A DNA stretch of 64,000 nucleotides from an uncultured Pelagibacteraceae bacterium (lineage in GTDB: Bacteria > Pseudomonadota > Alphaproteobacteria > Pelagibacterales > Pelagibacteraceae), in contig CABXWY010000001.1 in assembly GCA_902515985.1 (NCBI GenBank), positions 1-64,000 on the forward strand, read 5' to 3'. Under the pieces are notes generated by a model. That model was not told the origin of the DNA. It made no database searches and saw only the letters and a list, made by a program, of their open reading frames with translations. Position numbers and translations under genes: made by a program. Every line of letters begins with the position of its first letter. The stretch's first letter is position 1. Positions 4,196 to 45,169 of this stretch are shown here, one piece after another.

Positions 4196-4990
4196 ATGAT
4201 AGGTTTAATTTTTGGTGATACAGATTTTCCAAATAAAATACTTAAGACTATTAGGAACAAAAAAATAAGGTATCTGATAATAGATTTATCTAAATCCAAG
4301 AAATTTAAAAAAGATAGTAAATCTTTTTCAGTTTCGATAGGTCAATTTGGTAAAATAATTAATATTCTTAAAGAAAATAGTTGTAGAAAAGTCTTATTTG
4401 CCGGGAAAGTTAAAAAACCAAACTTTTCTAAGTTAAAGTTAGACTTTAAAGGAATTTATTATATTCCAAGAATTATCAAAGCATCCAAGCTTGGAGATGC
4501 TGCAATTTTAAAAGAAATAATAAAAATTCTAACTCAAAATAAGATAAAAACTGAGAATTCTCTCAAATTTAATCCAGAGCTTACTTTTAAAAAGGGTAAC
4601 TATTCAAAGATTAAGCCCAATAATAAAGACCAATTAGATATTAAAAAGGCCATCAAAACATTAAATAATTTGAAACAGTATAATTATAGCCAAGGCGTAG
4701 TAGTGAGAAATAAAAAAGTGGTCTCTATAGAAGGAAGGGGTGGTACAAAAAAATTACTCGAAAAAAGTAAAAGTAAAAAATTTCGAAATCATGGTGTTTT
4801 AGTTAAGTTTCCAAAAAAAAAACAAGACCTCAGAGTTGATCTACCAACTATTGGATTAAAAACTTTACAACAAAGTAAGATAGCTGGATTAAAAGGCATT
4901 GTTGTAAAAGGTAAAAAACACGTGTTTTTAGATAAAAATAAATGTATCAGCTTTGCTAATAAAAATAAGATGTTTATCTCAGTAAAATGA
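4196..4990 (+). CDS. lpxI: UDP-2,3-diacylglucosamine pyrophosphatase LpxI (DUF1009 family)
   Basis: Hydrolyses UDP-2,3-diacylglucosamine to lipid X and UMP, replacing LpxH in alphaproteobacteria. The 264 residues show an N-terminal Rossmann-like half (MIGLIFGDTDFP, LFAGKVKKP) and a C-terminal half with YNYSQGVVVRNKKVVSIEG, a glycine-rich EGRGGTKKLL segment and VDLPTIGLKTLQQ, the conserved DUF1009 region. I chose the ATG at 4196, one base after the lpxA stop. An in-frame TTG at 4142 would overlap lpxA by 53 bases. The position between lpxA and lpxB is the standard alphaproteobacterial place for lpxI. Confidence 0.9.
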   Translation: MIGLIFGDTDFPNKILKTIRNKKIRYLIIDLSKSKKFKKDSKSFSVSIGQFGKIINILKENSCRKVLFAGKVKKPNFSKLKLDFKGIYYIPRIIKASKLGDAAILKEIIKILTQNKIKTENSLKFNPELTFKKGNYSKIKPNNKDQLDIKKAIKTLNNLKQYNYSQGVVVRNKKVVSIEGRGGTKKLLEKSKSKKFRNHGVLVKFPKKKQDLRVDLPTIGLKTLQQSKIAGLKGIVVKGKKHVFLDKNKCISFANKNKMFISVK

Positions 4991-36476: not shown

Positions 36477-36550
36477 TGGAGGTAACGCCCGGAATCGAAC
36501 CGGGATACAAGGATTTGCAATCCTCTGCGTAACCATTCCGCCACGTTACC
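36477..36550 (-). tRNA. tRNA-Cys (anticodon GCA)
   Basis: Read on the minus strand: acceptor GGTAACG/CGTTACC, anticodon stem GAGGA/TCCTT with anticodon GCA (complement at 36516-36518), T arm CCCGG-TTCGATT-CCGGG, discriminator T and encoded CCA. It lies 50 bases upstream of tRNA-Asn and the two are probably cotranscribed. Confidence 0.95.
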
Positions 36551-36654: not shown

Positions 36655-39273
36655 ATGAGCTCAGATAAATATATTCATACCCAGGTAGAAAACAAAATAT
36701 ACGCTTATTGGGAAAAGAAAAATTTGTTCAAACCAAAGAAAAATAAAAAGCAATTTTCAATAGTTATACCACCACCAAATGTTACCGGAAGTCTTCATAT
36801 GGGACATGCTTTAAATAATACAATTCAAGATTTACTTACAAGATTTCACCGAATGAATAATTACGAAACTCTATGGCAACCAGGAACTGATCATGCCGGT
36901 ATTGCTACCCAGGCTTTAGTTGAGAAGAAATTAGCGAAAGAAAATATTAATAAACAGGATTTAGGAAGAGAGAAATTTATCAATAAAGTATGGGAGTGGA
37001 AGAATGAGTATGGCGACATAATAATTAATCAGCTAAAAAAATTAGGTTGTTCGTGCGACTGGTCAAGAAATGCTTTTACTATGGATGAAAATCTTTCAAA
37101 ATCTGTAATAAAAGTTTTTGTTGAGATGTATAACAAAGGATTAATTTATAAATCCAGAAAACTTGTTAATTGGGATACAGTTTTAAAAACAGCAATTTCA
37201 GATTTAGAGGTAGATCAAAGAGAAGTAAATTCAAAATTGTATTATATTAAATATCCAATAGAGGATACTGAAGACTTTATTACTATAGCCACAACCAGAC
37301 CAGAAACGATGTTGGGGGATACTGCTGTTGCTGTTCATCCTAAGGATAAAAGATTTAAAAAATATTTAGGGAAAAATGTAATTTTACCACTCACAACAAG
37401 AAAAGTTAAAATTATAGCTGACGAATATGCTGATCCTGAACAAGGCACAGGTGCTGTTAAAATTACCCCAGCTCATGATTTTAATGACTATGATGTTGGA
37501 AAAAGAAATAAATTAGAAATAATAAATATTTTTACTAATGACGGAAAAATAAATAATAATGCCCCTAGCGTCTATCAAGGCCTAGATAGATTTGAGGCAA
37601 GAAAAAGAATTTTAAATGATTTAGGTGATCTATTTATTAAAGAGGAAAAAATTAAAAATAAAGTTCCATACGGTGATAGATCTAATTCAGTTATTGAACC
37701 TTACTTAACTGATCAATGGTTTGCAGATGCAAAAAAATTATCAGTAAAGGCAAAAAAAGTAGTTAAAAATAAAAAAACTAGTTTTTTCCCAGCAAATTGG
37801 TCAAAGACTTATTTTCAGTGGATGAACAATATTGAACCATGGTGTATTTCAAGACAACTGTGGTGGGGTCATCAAATACCTGCGTGGTACACACCTGATA
37901 AAAAAATTATAGTCGCTTCAAATGAGAGCGAAGCGAAAAAAATTGCAAAAAAGAAATATAAAAAAAATATTGATCTTAAAAGAGATCCTGATGTTCTTGA
38001 TACTTGGTTTTCATCTGGCCTTTGGGCTTTTGCGACTTTAGGTTGGCCTAAAAAAAATGAATATTTAAAAAAATTTTATCCTACATCAGTTCTTGTAACT
38101 GGATTTGATATTATCTTTTTTTGGGTTGCTCGTATGATTATGTTTGGAACGGAATTTCTCAATAAAGAACCATTTAAAAATATTTATGTTCATGCACTTG
38201 TTCGAGATGAAAAAGGTCAGAAAATGTCTAAATCAAAAGGAAATGTTATTGATCCATTAGAACTCATAGAAAAATATAGTGCAGACGCTTTACGTTTCAC
38301 TTTATTATCAATGGCCTCGCCAGGTAGAGATGTTAAATTATCTGAAGATAGGGTTAAAGGTAACAGAAACTTTTTAAATAAACTTTGGAATGTAAATAAT
38401 TTTTTATTGCATAATAAATGTATCATTAAAAATACAAAAAAAGCTCCAAAAGCAACATTGAATATAAATAGATGGATTTATTCAGAATTAATAAGGAATA
38501 AGCAATTAATAGAGAAAAATATAAAAGATTACAGATTTGATGAGGCTTCCCGAAATGTTTACCAATTTGTTTGGCACTCATATTGTGACTGGTATTTAGA
38601 ACTAACTAAAACCATTTTTAATTCTGGTAAAAAAGGTGACATTAAAGAAACGAAAGAAATCGCAAGTTTCGTATTTAAAGAGATATTAGTTCTTTTACAT
38701 CCCTTTATACCATTTATAACAGAAGAAATTTGGCTAAACAACAAATTGGATAATAATAGCAAAGATTATCTGATGTACTCCAATTGGATAGGAGATAAAG
38801 CCAAGAAACAAAGTTTTGATGATGTTGAGAAAATCATTAATTTTATCACAGAAATTAGGTCTTTTAAAAATGAACTGGGTGTAAGTCCTGGTTCATTTAT
38901 TGAAATATCTTTCTCAAATGTTGACAAAAAAAATAAAACTTTCTTTAATAAAAATGACCTTGTGCTTAAAAGATTGGGACGTATATCAAGTTTCCTTGAA
39001 ATAGATAAAGCGAAACCATCTGCCTCTTTAGTTATTAAAGGCAATGTATTTAAGATTTACTTTGATGAAAAAATTGATTTAAATTTGATTAAAAATAATC
39101 TTTTAAGCAAACAATCAAAATATCAAGCTGAAATGGACAAAATATCATCAAGAATAAATAATAAAGACTTTGTAAAACGTGCACCAAAACATATTGTTGA
39201 ACAAGAAAAAAGTAATTATACTAATTTAGAAAATGATATAAAAAAAATATCAGCAACTGTAAAAAATTTATAA
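36655..39273 (+). CDS. valS: Valyl-tRNA synthetase ValS
   Basis: Class I synthetase for tRNA-Val with editing of threonine. The 872 residues show the HIGH motif in [17 protein letters not shown] near residue 45, editing-domain [17 protein letters not shown], the KMSKS motif in [16 protein letters not shown], an anticodon-binding domain ([15 protein letters not shown]) and a C-terminal coiled-coil arm. The length is slightly short of the usual 880-950. The stop overlaps the ilvD start by one base. Confidence 0.97.
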
Positions 39274-40991
39274 TGCCAAAATTTAATAAAAAAAAATTAC
39301 CAAGTAGACATACCTCATTAGGTCCAGATAAAGCACCACAAAGATCTTTTTACTATGCAATGGACCTTACAGAAAAAGATGTTGCAAAACCTTTTGTCGG
39401 TGTTGTTTCAACTTGGAATGAAGCAGCCCCATGTAATATTGCTCTTATGAGACAAGCACAATCTGTTAAAAAAGGTGTCCATCAAGCAGGCGGTACACCT
39501 AGAGAATTTTGCACTATTACTGTTACAGATGGTATAGCAATGGGTCACGAAGGTATGAAATCATCATTGATTTCAAGAGATGTAATTGCAGATTCCACTG
39601 AATTAACAGTCAGAGGACATTGTTATGATGCACTAGTCGGTGTAGCTGGTTGCGATAAATCATTACCAGGTTTGATGATGGCTATGGTTCGATTAAATGT
39701 TCCAAGTGTTTTTATTTATGGTGGATCCATTCTACCAGGAAGATTTAATGGTAAAGACGTAACTGTAGTCGATGTATTTGAAGGTGTTGGTAAATTTTCT
39801 GCAGGCAAAATGTCAGCTCATGCTTTAAGAAAATTAGAATTAAAAGCTTGTCCAAGTGCAGGTGCTTGTGGTGGTCAATTTACTGCAAATACTATGGCCT
39901 GCGTATCTGAAGCAATTGGATTAGCATTACCATATTCAGCTGGTACTCCAGCTCCCTATACCCAAAGAGATTCTTATGCTTTGAAAAGTGGTAAAGCTGT
40001 TATGAGTTTATTAGAAAAAAAAATTAGACCAAGAGATATTGTTACAAAGAAATCTTTAGAAAATGCAGCCACTATTGTTGCTGCAACAGGTGGATCTACT
40101 AATGCTGCATTACATTTACCAGCACTTGCAAATGAGGCTGGAATTAAATTTGATTTAATGGATGTTGCAAGAATATTTAAAAAAACACCTTATCTAGCTG
40201 ATCTTAAACCAGGTGGAAAGTATGTAGCTAAAGATATGTGGAAAGCAGGTGGTGTTCCAATGTTATTGAAAACACTTTTAGATGGTGGATACATCCATGG
40301 TGATTGCATGACTGTTACAGGTAAAACTATGAGACAAAATTTAAAAAATGTTAAGTTTAACAAAAATCAAAAAGTTATGAGGACATATAATCAACCATTA
40401 TCTCCAGATGGAGGTGTAGTTGGATTAAAAGGAAATTTAGCACCTGATGGAGCTATTGTTAAAGTAGCTGGTTTAAAAAGATTACAATTTACTGGTAAGG
40501 CTAGATGTTTTGATACAGAAGAAGCTGCTTACAAAGCTGTTAAAAATAAAAAGTATAAAGATGGTGATATCATTATAATTAGATACGAAGGTCCTAAAGG
40601 TGGTCCAGGTATGAGAGAAATGCTTCAAACCACAGGAGCAATATATGGACAAGGGAAGGGTGAAAAAGTTGCACTAATTACAGATGGAAGATTTTCAGGA
40701 GCGACAAGAGGATTTTGCATTGGACATGTTGGGCCAGAAGCATCAGTTGGAGGACCAATAGCTCTATTAAGAAATGGAGATATTATTGATCTAGATGCTA
40801 AGAAAGGAACAATAAATGTCCGTTTGTCTAAAAAAGAATTAGCAAAAAGACGAAAAAAATGGAAACCAAAGAAGATTAATTTTGGTAACGGGACACTTTG
40901 GAAGTACGCGCAAACTGTTGGACCAGCATACCTTGGAGCGCCTACGCATCCAGGTGCAAAAGAAGAAGTCAGGACATACGCAGATATTTAA
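39273..40991 (+). CDS. ilvD: Dihydroxy-acid dehydratase IlvD
   Basis: Iron-sulfur dehydratase of branched-chain amino-acid synthesis. The 572 residues include [31 protein letters not shown] (cluster Cys), [19 protein letters not shown] (cluster Cys), [15 protein letters not shown] and the C-terminal [17 protein letters not shown]. Codon use is less extreme than in flanking genes, suggesting high expression. Valine supply and valine charging (valS) are thus neighbours. The stop overlaps the manC start (TAATG). Confidence 0.96.
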
Positions 40992-42196
40992 TGAAAATAA
41001 GACCTGTTATTTTATGTGGTGGAGCTGGTACTAGGCTCTGGCCCAAAGTATCAAAACATCAAGCAAAACAATTTATTGATTTTGGCGGTTGGACACTAAT
41101 TAACAAAACCTTTGAGAGAATTAAAAATAATATCTACGATTATCCCATCATCAGCACAAATGCTAAGTATATTAAAGAAGTTAAAAAGGCTTTAAAAAAA
41201 AGTAAAATAAAAAAATTTAAGATTGTTTTAGAACCGGCAAAAAAAAATACAGCCCCAGCTATATTAACTTCGGCACTAATAAAAGACATCCCAAACAATC
41301 AGCCTTTGATGTATTTTACTGCAGATCACTTAATTGAAAATCCAAGTAAATTAAATAGAGAAATAAAAAAAAATAAATCCAATCTTGATAATAAAAATGT
41401 ATTTATTTTTGGCATTAAACCAACTAACCCATCTAGTGAATACGGATATTTTTTAACCAAAAAAGATAAAAAAAATACTAATAAAGTCACAAGATTTATT
41501 GAAAAACCAAAGCCTGCAAAAGCAAAGCAAGTTATTAAAAAAAAGGGATACTGGAATTCTGGAATGTTCTTTTTAAGAAAAGACTCAATCATTAATAATT
41601 TTAAAAAATTTCAACCAAAAACTTACAAAAATTGTTTAGCATCAGTTCATAAGTCAAAATATCGAAATAACATATATTATCTAAATAAATCTTCATTCAT
41701 TAAGTCAATTGAAAAATCTTTTGATTATGCAATTTTAGAAAAAACAAAAAATATAAATGCGATTAAATTGGATATTCCATGGTCTGATTTAGGAAGCTGG
41801 AAAGAAATCTGTAAAATGTATGGAAAAAAAAAATCTAAATATTTTAAAAAGAAAAATGTTTTTTATAGACCATGGGGTAGCTATACAAATTTATATAATG
41901 GTAAAAATTTTTTAATAAAGGAATTGTATGTTAAATCTAAGGGTATCTTAAGTCTCCAAAAGCATTTTCATAGATCAGAACACTGGCTAGTTACTCAAGG
42001 CAAACCTAAAATAACATTAAATAAAAAGGTATTTTATAAAAAAGTAAATGAAGCTACATTCATTCCACTAGGTGCTATTCATAGAATTGAAAATCCTTTT
42101 AAAAAGCCTGTTAAAATTATTGAAGCGCAACTTGGTTCAATATTAAAGGAAACCGATATTGTGAGATACCAAGATATTTATGGTAGAATAAAATAG
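40991..42196 (+). CDS. manC: Mannose-1-phosphate guanylyltransferase ManC/AlgA-type with cupin tail
   Basis: Makes GDP-mannose for surface glycans. In 401 residues: the nucleotidyltransferase domain (VILCGGAGTRLWPKVSKHQA, YFTADHLIEN, FIEKPKPAKAKQ, GYWNSGMFF) to about residue 260, then a cupin domain of the type II mannose-6-phosphate isomerase family (RPWGSYTN, LSLQKHFHRSEHWLV, FIPLGAIHRIENP). It is shorter than usual (about 470), so isomerase activity is uncertain. An in-frame upstream start at 40898 lies inside ilvD and is rejected. A second copy of its last 16 residues occurs 450 bases downstream. Confidence 0.9.
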   Translation: MKIRPVILCGGAGTRLWPKVSKHQAKQFIDFGGWTLINKTFERIKNNIYDYPIISTNAKYIKEVKKALKKSKIKKFKIVLEPAKKNTAPAILTSALIKDIPNNQPLMYFTADHLIENPSKLNREIKKNKSNLDNKNVFIFGIKPTNPSSEYGYFLTKKDKKNTNKVTRFIEKPKPAKAKQVIKKKGYWNSGMFFLRKDSIINNFKKFQPKTYKNCLASVHKSKYRNNIYYLNKSSFIKSIEKSFDYAILEKTKNINAIKLDIPWSDLGSWKEICKMYGKKKSKYFKKKNVFYRPWGSYTNLYNGKNFLIKELYVKSKGILSLQKHFHRSEHWLVTQGKPKITLNKKVFYKKVNEATFIPLGAIHRIENPFKKPVKIIEAQLGSILKETDIVRYQDIYGRIK

Positions 42197-42197
42197 T

Positions 42198-42536
42198 ATG
42201 AGTATTTCATCTGGTTATATTTATTTAATTTTAGCTGTTGTGCTGGGAATTGCTGCAAATGGATTCTTAAAAACTACTAATGGTTTTACTACCATGTTGC
42301 CTACAATTTTTTGTGCTATTTCAATTCTACTTTGTTTATTCTGTCTGTCTAAAGCTATGAATACTATACCCGTTGGATTTACATACGCAACTTACGGAGG
42401 ATTAACCATTACTGCTGTAACCATTTTTGGAATTTTAAAATATAATCAATTGCCCAATATTTATGGAACAATAGGTATAATTCTAATAATTATAGGTGTG
42501 ATACTAGTAAACTATTTAGGAAAAGTAAGTTCTTAA
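42198..42536 (+). CDS. SMR-type small membrane transporter lacking the conserved TM1 glutamate
   Basis: Four-helix membrane protein of the small multidrug resistance superfamily, 112 residues. The second half matches the family well (AMNTIPVGFTYATYGGLTIT, GTIGIILIIIGVILVNYL). In helix 1 the sequence is LAVVLGIAANGFLKTTNGFT. Aligned by LK and GFT to EmrE, the membrane-embedded Glu14 position falls on Gly17. Proton-coupled drug export is therefore doubtful. A non-antiporter role, for example a lipid-carrier flippase subunit like ArnE/ArnF, is conceivable next to manC but unproven. It starts one base after manC. Confidence 0.82.
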   Translation: MSISSGYIYLILAVVLGIAANGFLKTTNGFTTMLPTIFCAISILLCLFCLSKAMNTIPVGFTYATYGGLTITAVTIFGILKYNQLPNIYGTIGIILIIIGVILVNYLGKVSS

Positions 42537-42579
42537 AAGGTTTTAACAAATCTGTAACATTTAAATGAGATAATTTTAT

Positions 42580-42660
42580 ATGGAACTATTAACATTTGTT
42601 TTGTTAATCATAATAGCTATTTTGTTATTTTTTCTTTTAAAAAAAAAGAAATTGATATAG
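42580..42660 (+). CDS. Possible 26-residue membrane microprotein
   Basis: ATG-initiated frame encoding a 20-residue hydrophobic helix followed by LKKKKLI. No clear ribosome binding site. Its end overlaps the manC tail remnant in another frame. It may be a chance frame in AT-rich sequence. Confidence 0.2.
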   Translation: MELLTFVLLIIIAILLFFLLKKKKLI

Positions 42661-42695
42661 CTAGGTATCAAGAAATATATGGCCGTATTAAATAA
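42645..42695 (+). pseudogene. 3' tail remnant of a second manC-like gene
   Basis: In frame, this stretch reads KEIDIARYQEIYGRIK then stop. The intact manC at 42145-42196 ends KETDIVRYQDIYGRIK then stop: 13 of 16 residues identical. Most codon differences are synonymous (for example AGA/AGG, TAC/TAT, GGT/GGC, AGA/CGT), so the copy diverged while still coding, not as a fresh duplication. Nothing upstream in frame resembles ManC. It looks like the end of a resident gene whose body was lost or replaced. Confidence 0.75.
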
Positions 42696-42718
42696 TTAAT
42701 ACGATCACAAAAATATAT

Positions 42719-43684
42719 TTAAAACCAATTGTTTGGTATTATTACATAGTGTATTGCAAGCACTATACCTACTGAAACAGTTAAGCCGAATACCATTTTT
42801 AGGAAATCTTTTCCAATTAATGGAAAGACGTAACCTAACTTATATTCTTTGTTCATGCTAGCTATAGCAAGTTCTCTTCCACATAATAAACCAACAAAAA
42901 CCCATGTTGTAGACATAGGTAAATCGTTTAGTTCTTTAAAGTAGAATAAGACACCAGCATAAATTACATTAATAATTGTTGCTGATCTTGCGTATCTTGT
43001 TCCTGTTTTTTCAAGAACGACTTTTTGAATTGGTCCACCTTGAATGTAGAAAATATAAAATAATAGAGCTGTAAAGTAACCCATTACAATTAAGAGTAAT
43101 GTTAAGTCTAATTGTCTAGGAAGATATACTGCAATATTAGCCACGTCGTGAGATAACCAAACCCACCATAACCAACCTGAAGAGATCCAAACAGCATTTC
43201 TCCAGAAGCCTACCCATTTTTCGTCTACTTCATCAAATTTTTCATTAATGAATTTAGAAACACCTATCCAGGCGATGTAAGCAACCATTGCAGCTAAACC
43301 ATAACCAACAACGCTTTTCATAAGCATTTTTTCAAGCACAACCGTTGAGGCAAATGCTGAAAGAACTAAAAAGGTAGTTGAAACTGGTATTCCAATTCTA
43401 GTTAATAATAATAGTATTGCAGGCGCTACTGCGTGATACCATTGAATTTCTTGATAAGGTATTCTAGTTAATCTTCCATAAGATATATCACCATCATACG
43501 AATACCATCCCCATGCTAACGCAATAATCATTACAGCTGATGCAGATCCTGCAAGTGTATACCATTTAAACCACTTCTTTTTTGAGGCAATAAATGTACC
43601 TAGTGTTTGAATTGAGTCGTTAGCGATTACGCTATAACCGGCAAGGGCAAAGCCTATAACCGTGTAAATTAAAGTCATATTCAT
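42719..43684 (-). CDS. PiT-like inorganic phosphate/anion permease (divergent)
   Basis: Polytopic membrane protein of 321 residues with about eight to nine hydrophobic segments. Two inverted signature-like segments recall the phosphate permease family PF01384: GYSVIANDSIQTLGTFIAS near residue 16 (compare GANDxxNxxGT) and DLPMSTTWVFVGLLCGRELA near residue 255 (compare PVSTTHxxVG). GIPVSTTFLVLSAFAST in the middle is a further PxSTT element. It is shorter and more divergent than PitA, so the substrate could be phosphate or another anion. A strong ribosome binding site (AAGGAG) precedes the ATG. Expression may respond to phosphate, but no box could be verified. Confidence 0.72.
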   Translation of the reverse strand: MNMTLIYTVIGFALAGYSVIANDSIQTLGTFIASKKKWFKWYTLAGSASAVMIIALAWGWYSYDGDISYGRLTRIPYQEIQWYHAVAPAILLLLTRIGIPVSTTFLVLSAFASTVVLEKMLMKSVVGYGLAAMVAYIAWIGVSKFINEKFDEVDEKWVGFWRNAVWISSGWLWWVWLSHDVANIAVYLPRQLDLTLLLIVMGYFTALLFYIFYIQGGPIQKVVLEKTGTRYARSATIINVIYAGVLFYFKELNDLPMSTTWVFVGLLCGRELAIASMNKEYKLGYVFPLIGKDFLKMVFGLTVSVGIVLAIHYVIIPNNWF

Positions 43685-43876: not shown

Positions 43877-44527
43877 TTATTTAATTAATTTTTTAATAAA
43901 ATATACAGCTATTAGAGCCCCTAAAAATTCAGCTAAAATATATGTAGGCGTATTCAAATAATTAATTCCCGTAAAAGAATCAGTAAAAGTTCTAGCTATT
44001 GAAACAGCTGGATTTGCAAAAGATGTTGATGATGTGAACCAATAACCAGCCATAATATATGTTGCAACACTAGCAGCTATTATTATTTTGCCATCTTTTT
44101 GAGTAGCAAAAATAATAAAAATTAAACCAAAAGTAGCAATTATTTCAGATAAGAAAATATGTAAGCCATCTCTATTTTTTGTCGATAACTCAAGAATATC
44201 GTGTTCAAAAAAAACATTAGCCAACATAACACCAACCAAACAACCAAGTATTTGGGCAGGAATATAAATGATCAGAAGTTTTCCATTGATTTTTTTTCTT
44301 AAAAACATTGATAAACTCACAAAAGGATTAAAATGTGCACCTGAAATATTTGCAAAAGCAGTTATTAAGACGAATAGGCCAGCACCAGTTGCGAGTGTAT
44401 TAGCTGTTAATCTCAAAGCATTATCATTTGTTAGATTTTCAGCCATTATTCCAGACCCAACAATAACCATTACTAAAAAGCTACTTCCAATAAATTCACC
44501 TAGAAATATTCTGTTATTATTTTTCAT
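43877..44527 (-). CDS. Aquaporin-family channel (AqpS-like) with NPF in the first NPA box
   Basis: MIP-family channel, 216 residues, six membrane segments. The first NPA box is altered (GAHFNPFVSL, Asn67-Pro68-Phe69). The second is intact (ANPAVSIAR, residues 171-179). It overlaps arsC by 11 bp on the same strand. In Sinorhizobium an aquaporin (AqpS) next to arsC lets arsenite, made by ArsC, leave the cell, and that role is the best inference here. A general glycerol or small-solute channel is the alternative. Confidence 0.85.
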   Translation of the reverse strand: MKNNNRIFLGEFIGSSFLVMVIVGSGIMAENLTNDNALRLTANTLATGAGLFVLITAFANISGAHFNPFVSLSMFLRKKINGKLLIIYIPAQILGCLVGVMLANVFFEHDILELSTKNRDGLHIFLSEIIATFGLIFIIFATQKDGKIIIAASVATYIMAGYWFTSSTSFANPAVSIARTFTDSFTGINYLNTPTYILAEFLGALIAVYFIKKLIK

Positions 44528-44948
44528 TTAGAATCCAATTTTTAATTCTTTTATCAATATTATTAAAAGTATCAGTAATTGTCTGAAATTTTTCATCCTC
44601 ATTTATGTTATTAAGTTTTGTTACTGGGTCTTCAATATTCCAATGAATGATTTGATTTTTCTTAGGCCAAATAGGGCACAGCTCATTGTTAGCATTATTA
44701 CATACAGTAATAACATGATCAATTTTTATTTCTCCATCAATAAACATACTAAAATTTTTAGACGAGTAGTCTTGAAGATTAAATCCTTTATTGTTTAAAT
44801 AACGTTTTATATCTTTATTAATTTCGCCAGAAGGGTTACTACCAGCACTGTAAGCTTTAAATTTATCGTTATATTTATTATTAACTATAGATTCAGCAAT
44901 GATACTTCTTGCAGAGTTTCCTGTACAAACAAACAATATATTTTCCAC
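44517..44948 (-). CDS. arsC: Arsenate reductase, low-molecular-weight phosphatase type
   Basis: Reduces arsenate to arsenite, probably with thioredoxin. The 143 residues have the phosphatase P-loop CTGNSARS (Cys8 to Arg14) and a Cys83/Cys91 pair in VCNNANNELCP, completing the Cys triad of thioredoxin-coupled ArsC. The HWNIEDPV loop supplies the catalytic Asp-Pro. The paired cysteines favour arsenate reductase over tyrosine phosphatase. It shares one base with the small membrane protein upstream and overlaps the aquaporin gene downstream. Confidence 0.9.
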   Translation of the reverse strand: MENILFVCTGNSARSIIAESIVNNKYNDKFKAYSAGSNPSGEINKDIKRYLNNKGFNLQDYSSKNFSMFIDGEIKIDHVITVCNNANNELCPIWPKKNQIIHWNIEDPVTKLNNINEDEKFQTITDTFNNIDKRIKNWILNEK

Positions 44949-45169
44949 TATATAATAATCTTATAAATTCCTATTAAGAACAATGGTATTTGTAGTCCAA
45001 AGTTTGTAAGAATAGCCTTATCTTTGCTGATAAATCCAGCGACAGTCCATCCAACAACCCCTAATCCATGAAAGTAAATATTAATGGGGTAGATGTTTAA
45101 GTTTGTAAGTAATATTCCGGTTAATACAAGGAATGTACTGATCCATTTTAAGTATTTTTTTAAAAACAT
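44948..45169 (-). CDS. Small membrane protein upstream of arsC (unknown function)
   Basis: 73 residues with three hydrophobic segments (about 9-26, 33-47, 55-72) and short charged ends (MFLKKYLKW; GFISKDKAIL). I do not recognise a characterised family. It overlaps arsC by one base (stop/start) and has a reasonable ribosome binding site (AGGAG) before the ATG, so it is probably a real first gene of an operon with arsC and the aquaporin. A link to arsenic handling is only by position. Confidence 0.7.
   Translation of the reverse strand: MFLKKYLKWISTFLVLTGILLTNLNIYPINIYFHGLGVVGWTVAGFISKDKAILTNFGLQIPLFLIGIYKIII

Follow-up and report, generated by a model that had tools for sequence, protein, structure and literature searches.

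An orphan manC 3' end beside a PiT-like phosphate transporter gene is a probable scar of module exchange that recurs in SAR11 genomes

The window analyzed here, a stretch of 64,000 nucleotides, comes from a genome of 27 contigs that is 87.6% complete, and its named relatives are uncultured Pelagibacteraceae (SAR11). The locus begins on the forward strand with the left-flanking ilvD (an open reading frame at 39273 to 40991; Pfam ILVD_EDD), followed by a complete manC encoding mannose-1-phosphate guanylyltransferase/isomerase (40991 to 42196; Pfam NTP_transferase and MannoseP_isomer), the start of which was picked by reading, as the list of open reading frames has a TTG further upstream. On the same strand are an SMR-family small transporter gene (42198 to 42536; Pfam Multi_Drug_Res, 7.4e-17), a phoR remnant (phoR', 42580 to 42660) consisting of about 22 first phoR codons (42580 to 42645) that run into manC sequence, and an orphan manC 3' tail of 16 codons and stop (manC', 42645 to 42695) recognized by a profile match. 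A terminator-like hairpin found by stem score (42678 to 42709, no strand assigned) has its left arm in the last codons of the tail. The reverse strand then carries a PiT-like phosphate transporter gene with weak PHO4 similarity (42719 to 43684), an aquaporin gene of the MIP family (43877 to 44527; Pfam MIP, 2.6e-27), an ArsC-like gene of the LMW-phosphatase family (44517 to 44948; Pfam LMWPc, 2.8e-18; TIGR02691 at an E value of 2.9e-20, under the curated cutoff), and a 73-amino-acid DUF6552 gene (44948 to 45169) that gene order, the identity profile, and Pfam mark as common to Pst-type and PiT-type loci. By its family matches, the ArsC-like product is a probable arsenate reductase. Pfam searches of the PiT block, which found MIP and LMWPc and left the PiT-like gene without a match at 0.001, detected no integrase, and the tRNA gene nearest to the block lies at 36477 to 36550. 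Upstream of phoR', positions 42537 to 42579 read TTTTAACAAATCTGTAACATTT, which we take to resemble a Pho box; with phoR-phoB gone from the locus, it would be an orphan promoter.

The likeness of the tail to manC is above chance. The sequence KEIDIARYQEIYGRIK, closed by a stop codon, lies 449 bp behind the end of complete manC and reads K-E-I-D-I-A-R-Y-Q-E-I-Y-G-R-I-K-stop, with 13 of 16 residues the same as in KETDIVRYQDIYGRIK of the complete gene; the two sets of codons differ by eight silent changes and three residue changes (T to I, V to A, and D to E). Against a profile built from the C-terminal 60 residues of ManC, the tail scored 15.8 bits (E = 0.00017 in the searched set) in a match ending at the last column, while the best of 35 matches in the reverse-strand control reached 2.2 bits and the best forward match other than an end piece reached 3.8 bits. 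The same junction is present in five further genomes, G282, G119, G288, AG-404-J20 (J20), and AH-326-M11 (M11), so it is not an assembly error, and an artifact of one assembly is ruled out by its presence in six genomes. The initial annotation, made from the letters of the window, had picked out this second manC end behind manC-SMR and had stated that nothing ManC-like precedes it; both observations hold, the latter for the window in the same reading frame. It had missed that 42580 to 42644 are the start of phoR.

The residues I, A, and E found at the three changed positions of the tail occur at those positions in none of 105 ManC ends (29 distinct), and upstream of its hairpin-forming last codons the tail has decayed. 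Among 77 distinct 3' flanks of the PiT-like gene, 65 gave a stem score of 18 or more, and in the other 12 the hairpin was weak or absent. Where manC directly adjoins the PiT-like gene, the left arm of the hairpin is the GGCCGT(A/G)TTAA of manC's last codons. Read on the strand of the PiT-like gene, the stem usually includes a G-U pair, as against A-C on the opposite strand, an asymmetry suggesting that the hairpin serves PiT transcripts; in the window, one mismatch costs it one pair. We regard the hairpin as a candidate terminator, and the end of manC' was probably kept because its last codons form half of this structure.

The origin of phoR' was evident from genomes with an intact gene in the same place. 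In G009, the order is ilvD-manC-SMR-phoR-pstSCAB-phoU-phoB, followed by the DUF6552 gene and a dehydrogenase gene as in the window. G009 ManC is 98% identical to that of the window, the gene behind its SMR gene is intact and opens with the same MELLTFVLLIIIAILLFFLLKK, and window positions 42580 to 42645 are identical to its start, up to 42645. In G075, the intact homologue has TIGR02966 as its best model, at 287.6 bits against (and below) a cutoff of 334.2, and the G075 homologues of the G009 proteins match PhoR, PstS, PstC, PhoU, and PhoB models, with the PhoR and PstS homologues under and PstC, PhoU, and PhoB over the NCBIfam cutoffs. Given the gene order of G009 and the model matches of the G075 homologues, 42580 to 42645 is a truncated phoR. 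The phoR' of G288 looks like the phoR of G288's own background.

Alignment of gene starts, shared words, and the limits of matches in relatives place the left junction at 42639 to 42650, where nine A residues are followed by GAAA. Pst-type (SMR-phoR) genomes mostly match the window up to 42645, and genomes with a single manC directly before the PiT-like gene mostly match it from 42644 or 42645. On the phoR side the join reads CTTTTAAAAAAAGAAA (longer stretch, CTTTTAAAAAAAGAAAG), on the manC side it is commonly TTTTAAAAGAAA, and the product has nine A residues (window and M11) or ten (G282, G119, G288, and J20) followed by GAAATTGAT. Since these counts of nine or ten exceed those of both parents (seven and usually four), later slippage would have to be assumed as well. 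Of 84 distinct manC ends compared with the phoR tract at the K-E codons, 50 have 8 or 9 exact bases in common with it and the remaining 34 fewer than 8; 8 or more bases were shared with the tract by 6% of random 24-nucleotide manC windows, and random phoR-manC pairings had 8 or more exact bases across a join at a frequency below 0.001. The right border falls in the DUF6552 gene, which both parents have; identity changes over near 45.0 kb, and the breakpoint lies at about 44.95 to 45.05 kb.

No exact donor of the tail was found among the genomes surveyed. The full manC end closest in sequence to the tail, that of G273, where manC lies immediately before the PiT-like gene, reads RETDIV, is 90% identical to the tail over 42 nucleotides, and has one mismatch to a partly degenerate 33-nucleotide search pattern, being three bases off the window's own tail there; at the join it shares only five bases (AGAAA) with phoR. 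The expectation in the initial annotation that relatives would have a single manC ending in the remnant's codons was approached in G273 to within those three bases.

Identity per kilobase along the window, computed against 16 chosen genomes, separated the block from its flanks. G009 was 94 to 100% identical to the window at about 40 to 42.65 kb and again at about 44.95 to 47 kb and mostly 77 to 88% identical beyond (lowest bin, 71%), and the PiT block is missing from G009 between these two high-identity flanks. G288 was over 99% identical to the window at 42.65 to 44.95 kb and 68 to 84% identical outside, apart from the short phoR' stretch, and J20, visible only from 41.5 to 45.2 kb, had a G288-like pattern with 74 to 83% identity outside the block. 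Within the block, differences from the window numbered 7 in 1908 bases for G282 and, over 2302 bases, 12 for G119, 9 for G288, 7 for J20, and 17 for M11. The right flank at 45 to 47 kb was 97 to 99% identical per kilobase to Pst-type G009 and, where present, 72 to 78% identical to PiT-type G046, G096, G252, G035, and G137. The 40- to 41-kb bin (ilvD) was 96% identical to G009 and G026. The segment from the 3' end of ilvD through manC (40 to 42.2 kb) is itself recently shared, with 96 to 98% identity in G009, G026, and G282; elsewhere, identities of IlvD and ManC are decoupled, as in G075 (IlvD, 98%; ManC, 83%).

Trees of 28 manC and 23 PiT genes, all hand-picked and with J20 and G119 lacking a complete manC, grouped the carriers differently. 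In the manC tree, the window, G282, M11, G009, and G026 formed one clade (100/100) and G288, G378, G137, and G143 another (100/100), so the four carriers with a complete manC are spread over two separate clades. In the PiT tree, all six junction carriers formed one clade (99/99), and the window and J20 genes are identical over 963 bases. A PiT tree in which G288, J20, and G137 were held together was rejected (P = 3e-5), and one holding together the window, G282, M11, and G119 gave a P value of 0.041 with a log-likelihood gap of 2.9; the matching approximately unbiased (AU) test for manC gave a P value of only 0.049 despite a log-likelihood gap of 632. By trees and identities, the piece shared most recently is the PiT block rather than manC-SMR. 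The occurrence of one left junction in two manC backgrounds may reflect a single event that homologous recombination then spread, or two events at the same position.

The recurrence of manC tails was surveyed in 102 genomes, a nonrandom set made up largely of genomes with the best PiT matches, to which Pst-type, lipid-module, and SMR genomes were added by hand, and which leaves out loci L001 to L030 and those after L149. In 80 genomes, the stretch covered showed the PiT-like gene together with a manC 3' end; manC was counted when a match reached its 3' end, with the 5' side sometimes cut. The two genes were adjacent in 41 of the 80, an arrangement that the initial annotation had anticipated in relatives; a separate manC tail was present in 12, six of them with the junction of the window, and 27 had cargo between manC and PiT with no tail by profile, a class that includes G137, where the hairpin and a few codons of the tail can still be made out by eye. 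In a further 9 genomes, the stretch retrieved did not include a manC 3' end, and a tail was found in 3 of 13 loci without PiT. Full-length counterparts of the tail thus exist, and the relatives do not all carry the same short tail in this place.

Nine other surveyed genomes have manC tails of about 10 to 59 codons behind other cargo. By profile, orphan manC ends flush with the stop codon comprise 59 codons in G143, 29 in G260, and 19 in G029 (about 16 codons by its join). Tails of 12 codons occur in G003, G061, G195, G208, and AG-337-D17, and a 10-codon tail in G128 scored 3.7 bits, no higher than the best non-end match (3.8 bits), and rests on its position before PiT. The modules to the right of manC are Pst/PhoRB, PiT-MIP-LMWPc, or a diacylglycerol kinase (DGK)-phosphoesterase-glycosyltransferase set. 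In G029, the same phoR start and the same A-tract (CTTTTAAAA...GAAA) are joined to a common KETDIV-type manC end that is directly followed by the diacylglycerol kinase (lipid kinase) module; the breakpoint at phoR codon 22 has thus served two modules or more. In G143, the break in phoR lies deeper in the gene, at TTAAATAAAAA, ahead of the same module, and the join has an 11-base microhomology with several similar manC genes; the full 11-base word is missing from the best match (L045) and present in the next ones (L047, L095, and L065). G026 carries the diacylglycerol kinase module directly behind a complete manC, which explains why a manC end can come along with a module that is imported. These similar scars in relatives suggest that swaps recur at the manC 3' end.

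Other features of these loci were recorded along the way. The G143 locus (L138) has at 4342 to 4776, in manC-forward orientation, an in-frame 144-amino-acid fusion of about the first 85 residues of PhoR and the last 59 or so of ManC, ending at manC's stop codon. In L062, L074, L075, L121, and their relatives, a 110-amino-acid gene lies between manC and the 12-codon tail, with its end abutting the tail; it had no NCBIfam match at 0.001 and is presumably dgkA-like. The SMR gene is often directly beside PiT with no phoR piece seen between them (L077, L082, L083, L085, and L086, and likewise L114, L116, L127, and L133), sometimes several kilobases from manC, and may be traveling cargo in its own right.

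The initial annotation had proposed a swap site for surface-sugar genes; the genes exchanged here concern phosphate and probably arsenate instead. Among the matches listed for 101 genomes, PstC was found in 53, the PiT-like gene in at least 23, both in none, and neither in 25 (Fisher's exact test, 9.6e-10), counts that derive from a search with a 70-residue N-terminal piece of PstC and from PiT calls read by eye from DNA search matches, with many of the genomes incomplete. In 22 chosen genomes, a set overlapping the first, PstC was present in 8, none of them with PiT among the matches listed, and in 0 of the 14 PiT genomes, that of the window included. The window's PiT-like protein scored 11.2 bits against Pfam PHO4 (PF01384; E = 0.18), short of the gathering score of 33.7 bits, and all 21 members of its family that were scanned, itself among them, matched PHO4 at E values of up to 10 (best, 2.3e-7). 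Its AlphaFold model was weak (pLDDT, 66), Foldseek returned no solved structure at E values of 0.001 or less, and phmmer against the PDB found nothing at E values of up to 1. We therefore treat the protein as a weak PHO4 relative, a putative divergent branch of the family whose role in phosphate transport is presumed from that similarity.

The portions of earlier reports available to us place these genes in a wider pattern. Of offshore SAR11 genomes, only 55% carry pstSCAB-phoU-phoBR, the rest apparently relying on pitA (PMC12636525), and pst-phoBR has been placed in a flexible island of SAR11 (PMC7318151). The ArsC-aquaporin pair (LMWPc_ArsC and AqpS) is found in most Ia.3 strains, with ArsC commoner where phosphate is low (PMC6426599).

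The simplest reading, and one we consider quite probable, is that a PiT block, marked by the manC tail it brought along, replaced the Pst/PhoRB operon in a G009-like haplotype, because the G009 flanks match, the block is shared at over 99% identity, and the trees agree. The ancestor would have had the present order of G009, ilvD-manC-SMR-phoR-pstSCAB-phoU-phoB followed by the DUF6552 gene, and the donor would have been a PiT-type relative carrying a manC 3' end, PiT, aquaporin, the ArsC-like gene, and the DUF6552 gene. The right crossover would have been homologous, in or near the DUF6552 gene, and the left join illegitimate, formed where an A-rich microhomology links phoR codon ~22 to a position ~16 codons before the stop of the donor manC. 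Such an exchange, perhaps through transformation-like uptake, would have removed phoR to phoB, added the 2.3-kb PiT/aquaporin/ArsC-like block, and left two orphan gene ends, phoR' and manC', the latter at the left edge of the imported block.

The strongest competitor is the reading originally proposed, in which a foreign manC with the SMR gene (and, as now seen, the phoR start) entered a resident manC-PiT locus and the scar is the resident manC 3' end. It would leave an identical left junction, its resident type is that of 41 of 80 relatives, and manC is very mosaic, as in the decoupled identities of G075. Yet under this reading the right flank should look PiT-type, and it is 97 to 99% identical to Pst-type G009 and 72 to 78% identical to the PiT-type genomes compared; the most recently shared piece is, moreover, the PiT block. 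We consider this alternative unlikely. The part of the original proposal that called the tail a recombination scar at manC stands, and the part that made manC plus SMR the newcomer is not supported, given 94 to 100% identity to G009 on both sides and a PiT block shared at over 99%.

Deletion in place from an ancestor with manC-SMR-phoR-pst...-manC2-PiT, removing phoR to near the end of manC2, would give the same join if it occurred between microhomologies, and is very improbable on several grounds. No genome with two good manC genes was found among 101 searched (73 with matches), where second manC matches were 31 to 33% identical in G060 and G029 and, in G018, overlapping fragments of a single broken gene; Pst and PiT occur together in none of the 101 genomes among the matches listed; and the block is far more alike between genomes than its flanks. 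The broken manC of G018 lies at 1021 to 2212 of contig C2, with three TAA reported for each of its two overlapping matched pieces.

A functional tail, whether as a 38-residue chimeric phoR'-manC' membrane peptide or as part of a conserved small gene, seems slightly less probable still. Ten A residues put the fusion in frame in G282, G119, and J20, and G143 has its 144-amino-acid in-frame open reading frame; the in-frame fusion, however, follows from shared L-K-E codons, and three residues of the tail are absent from 105 ManC ends. The frame is broken in three of the six carriers, by nine A residues in the window, where it ends at a stop at 42660 after 26 codons, and in M11, and in G288 by the loss of a single base close to the start; the tail does not belong to a conserved small gene. 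An integrative element targeting the manC 3' end, which would call for an integrase and a fixed att repeat, was rejected, as no integrase was detected in the block and tail length varies from about 10 to 59 codons. Amplification chimeras join at short repeats, and some carriers may be single-cell genomes, which we take isolate names such as AG-404-J20 and AH-326-M11 to indicate though some titles say MAG, yet the same junction in six genomes and two manC/SMR backgrounds makes a chimeric assembly or amplification artifact a negligible prospect.

SAR11 is one of the most abundant groups of marine bacteria and is known to recombine frequently. The combination of one homologous and one microhomology border is that of homology-facilitated illegitimate recombination, known from natural transformation. 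The event proposed here resembles this process in having one homologous side, one microhomology join, and replaced recipient DNA, and differs in being read from sequence alone, in uncultured cells. As no exact donor was found among the genomes surveyed, its microhomology is an approximate one, of 8 to 9 bases with most manC ends and 5 with the nearest. The locus also resembles replacement flexible genomic islands, which in the parts of the HIMB59 and SAR11 reports available (PMC10734472 and PMC7318151) hold alternative phosphate genes at one chromosomal position. As in such islands, relatives have alternative gene sets at the same site, and no integrase, tRNA, or insertion sequence (IS) was detected at the borders; for the HIMB59 phosphate islands, which have no IS or tRNA at their borders, homologous recombination was proposed (PMC10734472). 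Unlike them, the block here is homologous at its right border only, and its left border joins the nonhomologous phoR and manC. The exchanged sets in this case are Pst/PhoRB and PiT-aquaporin-ArsC-like, and in their available parts, the descriptions of those islands (PMC10734472 and PMC7318151) include no scar like manC' that gives the direction of a swap. Whereas the consulted part of the work on pitA-only offshore SAR11 (PMC12636525) concerns gene content, the window provides the locus and its junctions. The gene pair is that of the SAR11 LMWPc_ArsC and AqpS, but, in contrast to the pair as described in the accessible text (PMC6426599), it moves here with the PiT-like gene as one block replacing Pst/PhoRB. 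Among the titles and abstract openings listed on SAR11 or Pelagibacter phosphate islands and recombination, none concerned manC tails or such junctions. Variability of phosphate genes in SAR11 is already published; the junction fossils, their reuse, and the direction they give appear to be new.

The manC tail is thus a genuine mark of module exchange, one that recurs and carries a likely direction. Beyond this, we tentatively suggest, as an idea with somewhat less than even prospects, that the manC 3' end could be a reusable "socket" for phosphate-economy modules in SAR11, in which modules would carry an abutting manC end, joins would form on a few A-rich microhomologies, the tail would supply half of a terminator, illegitimate imports would leave directional fossils, and strategies would switch in single steps. 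Tail length together with the joined gene gives a countable marker of how often swaps occur, and makes it testable whether illegitimate joins, besides homologous ones, feed gene exchange in streamlined genomes. The locus illustrates how a genome could change its phosphate state, Pst versus PiT, in one recombination with a likely direction. If the socket reading is true, Pst/PhoRB, PiT with arsenate handling, and lipid renovation would switch in single steps across SAR11 lineages.
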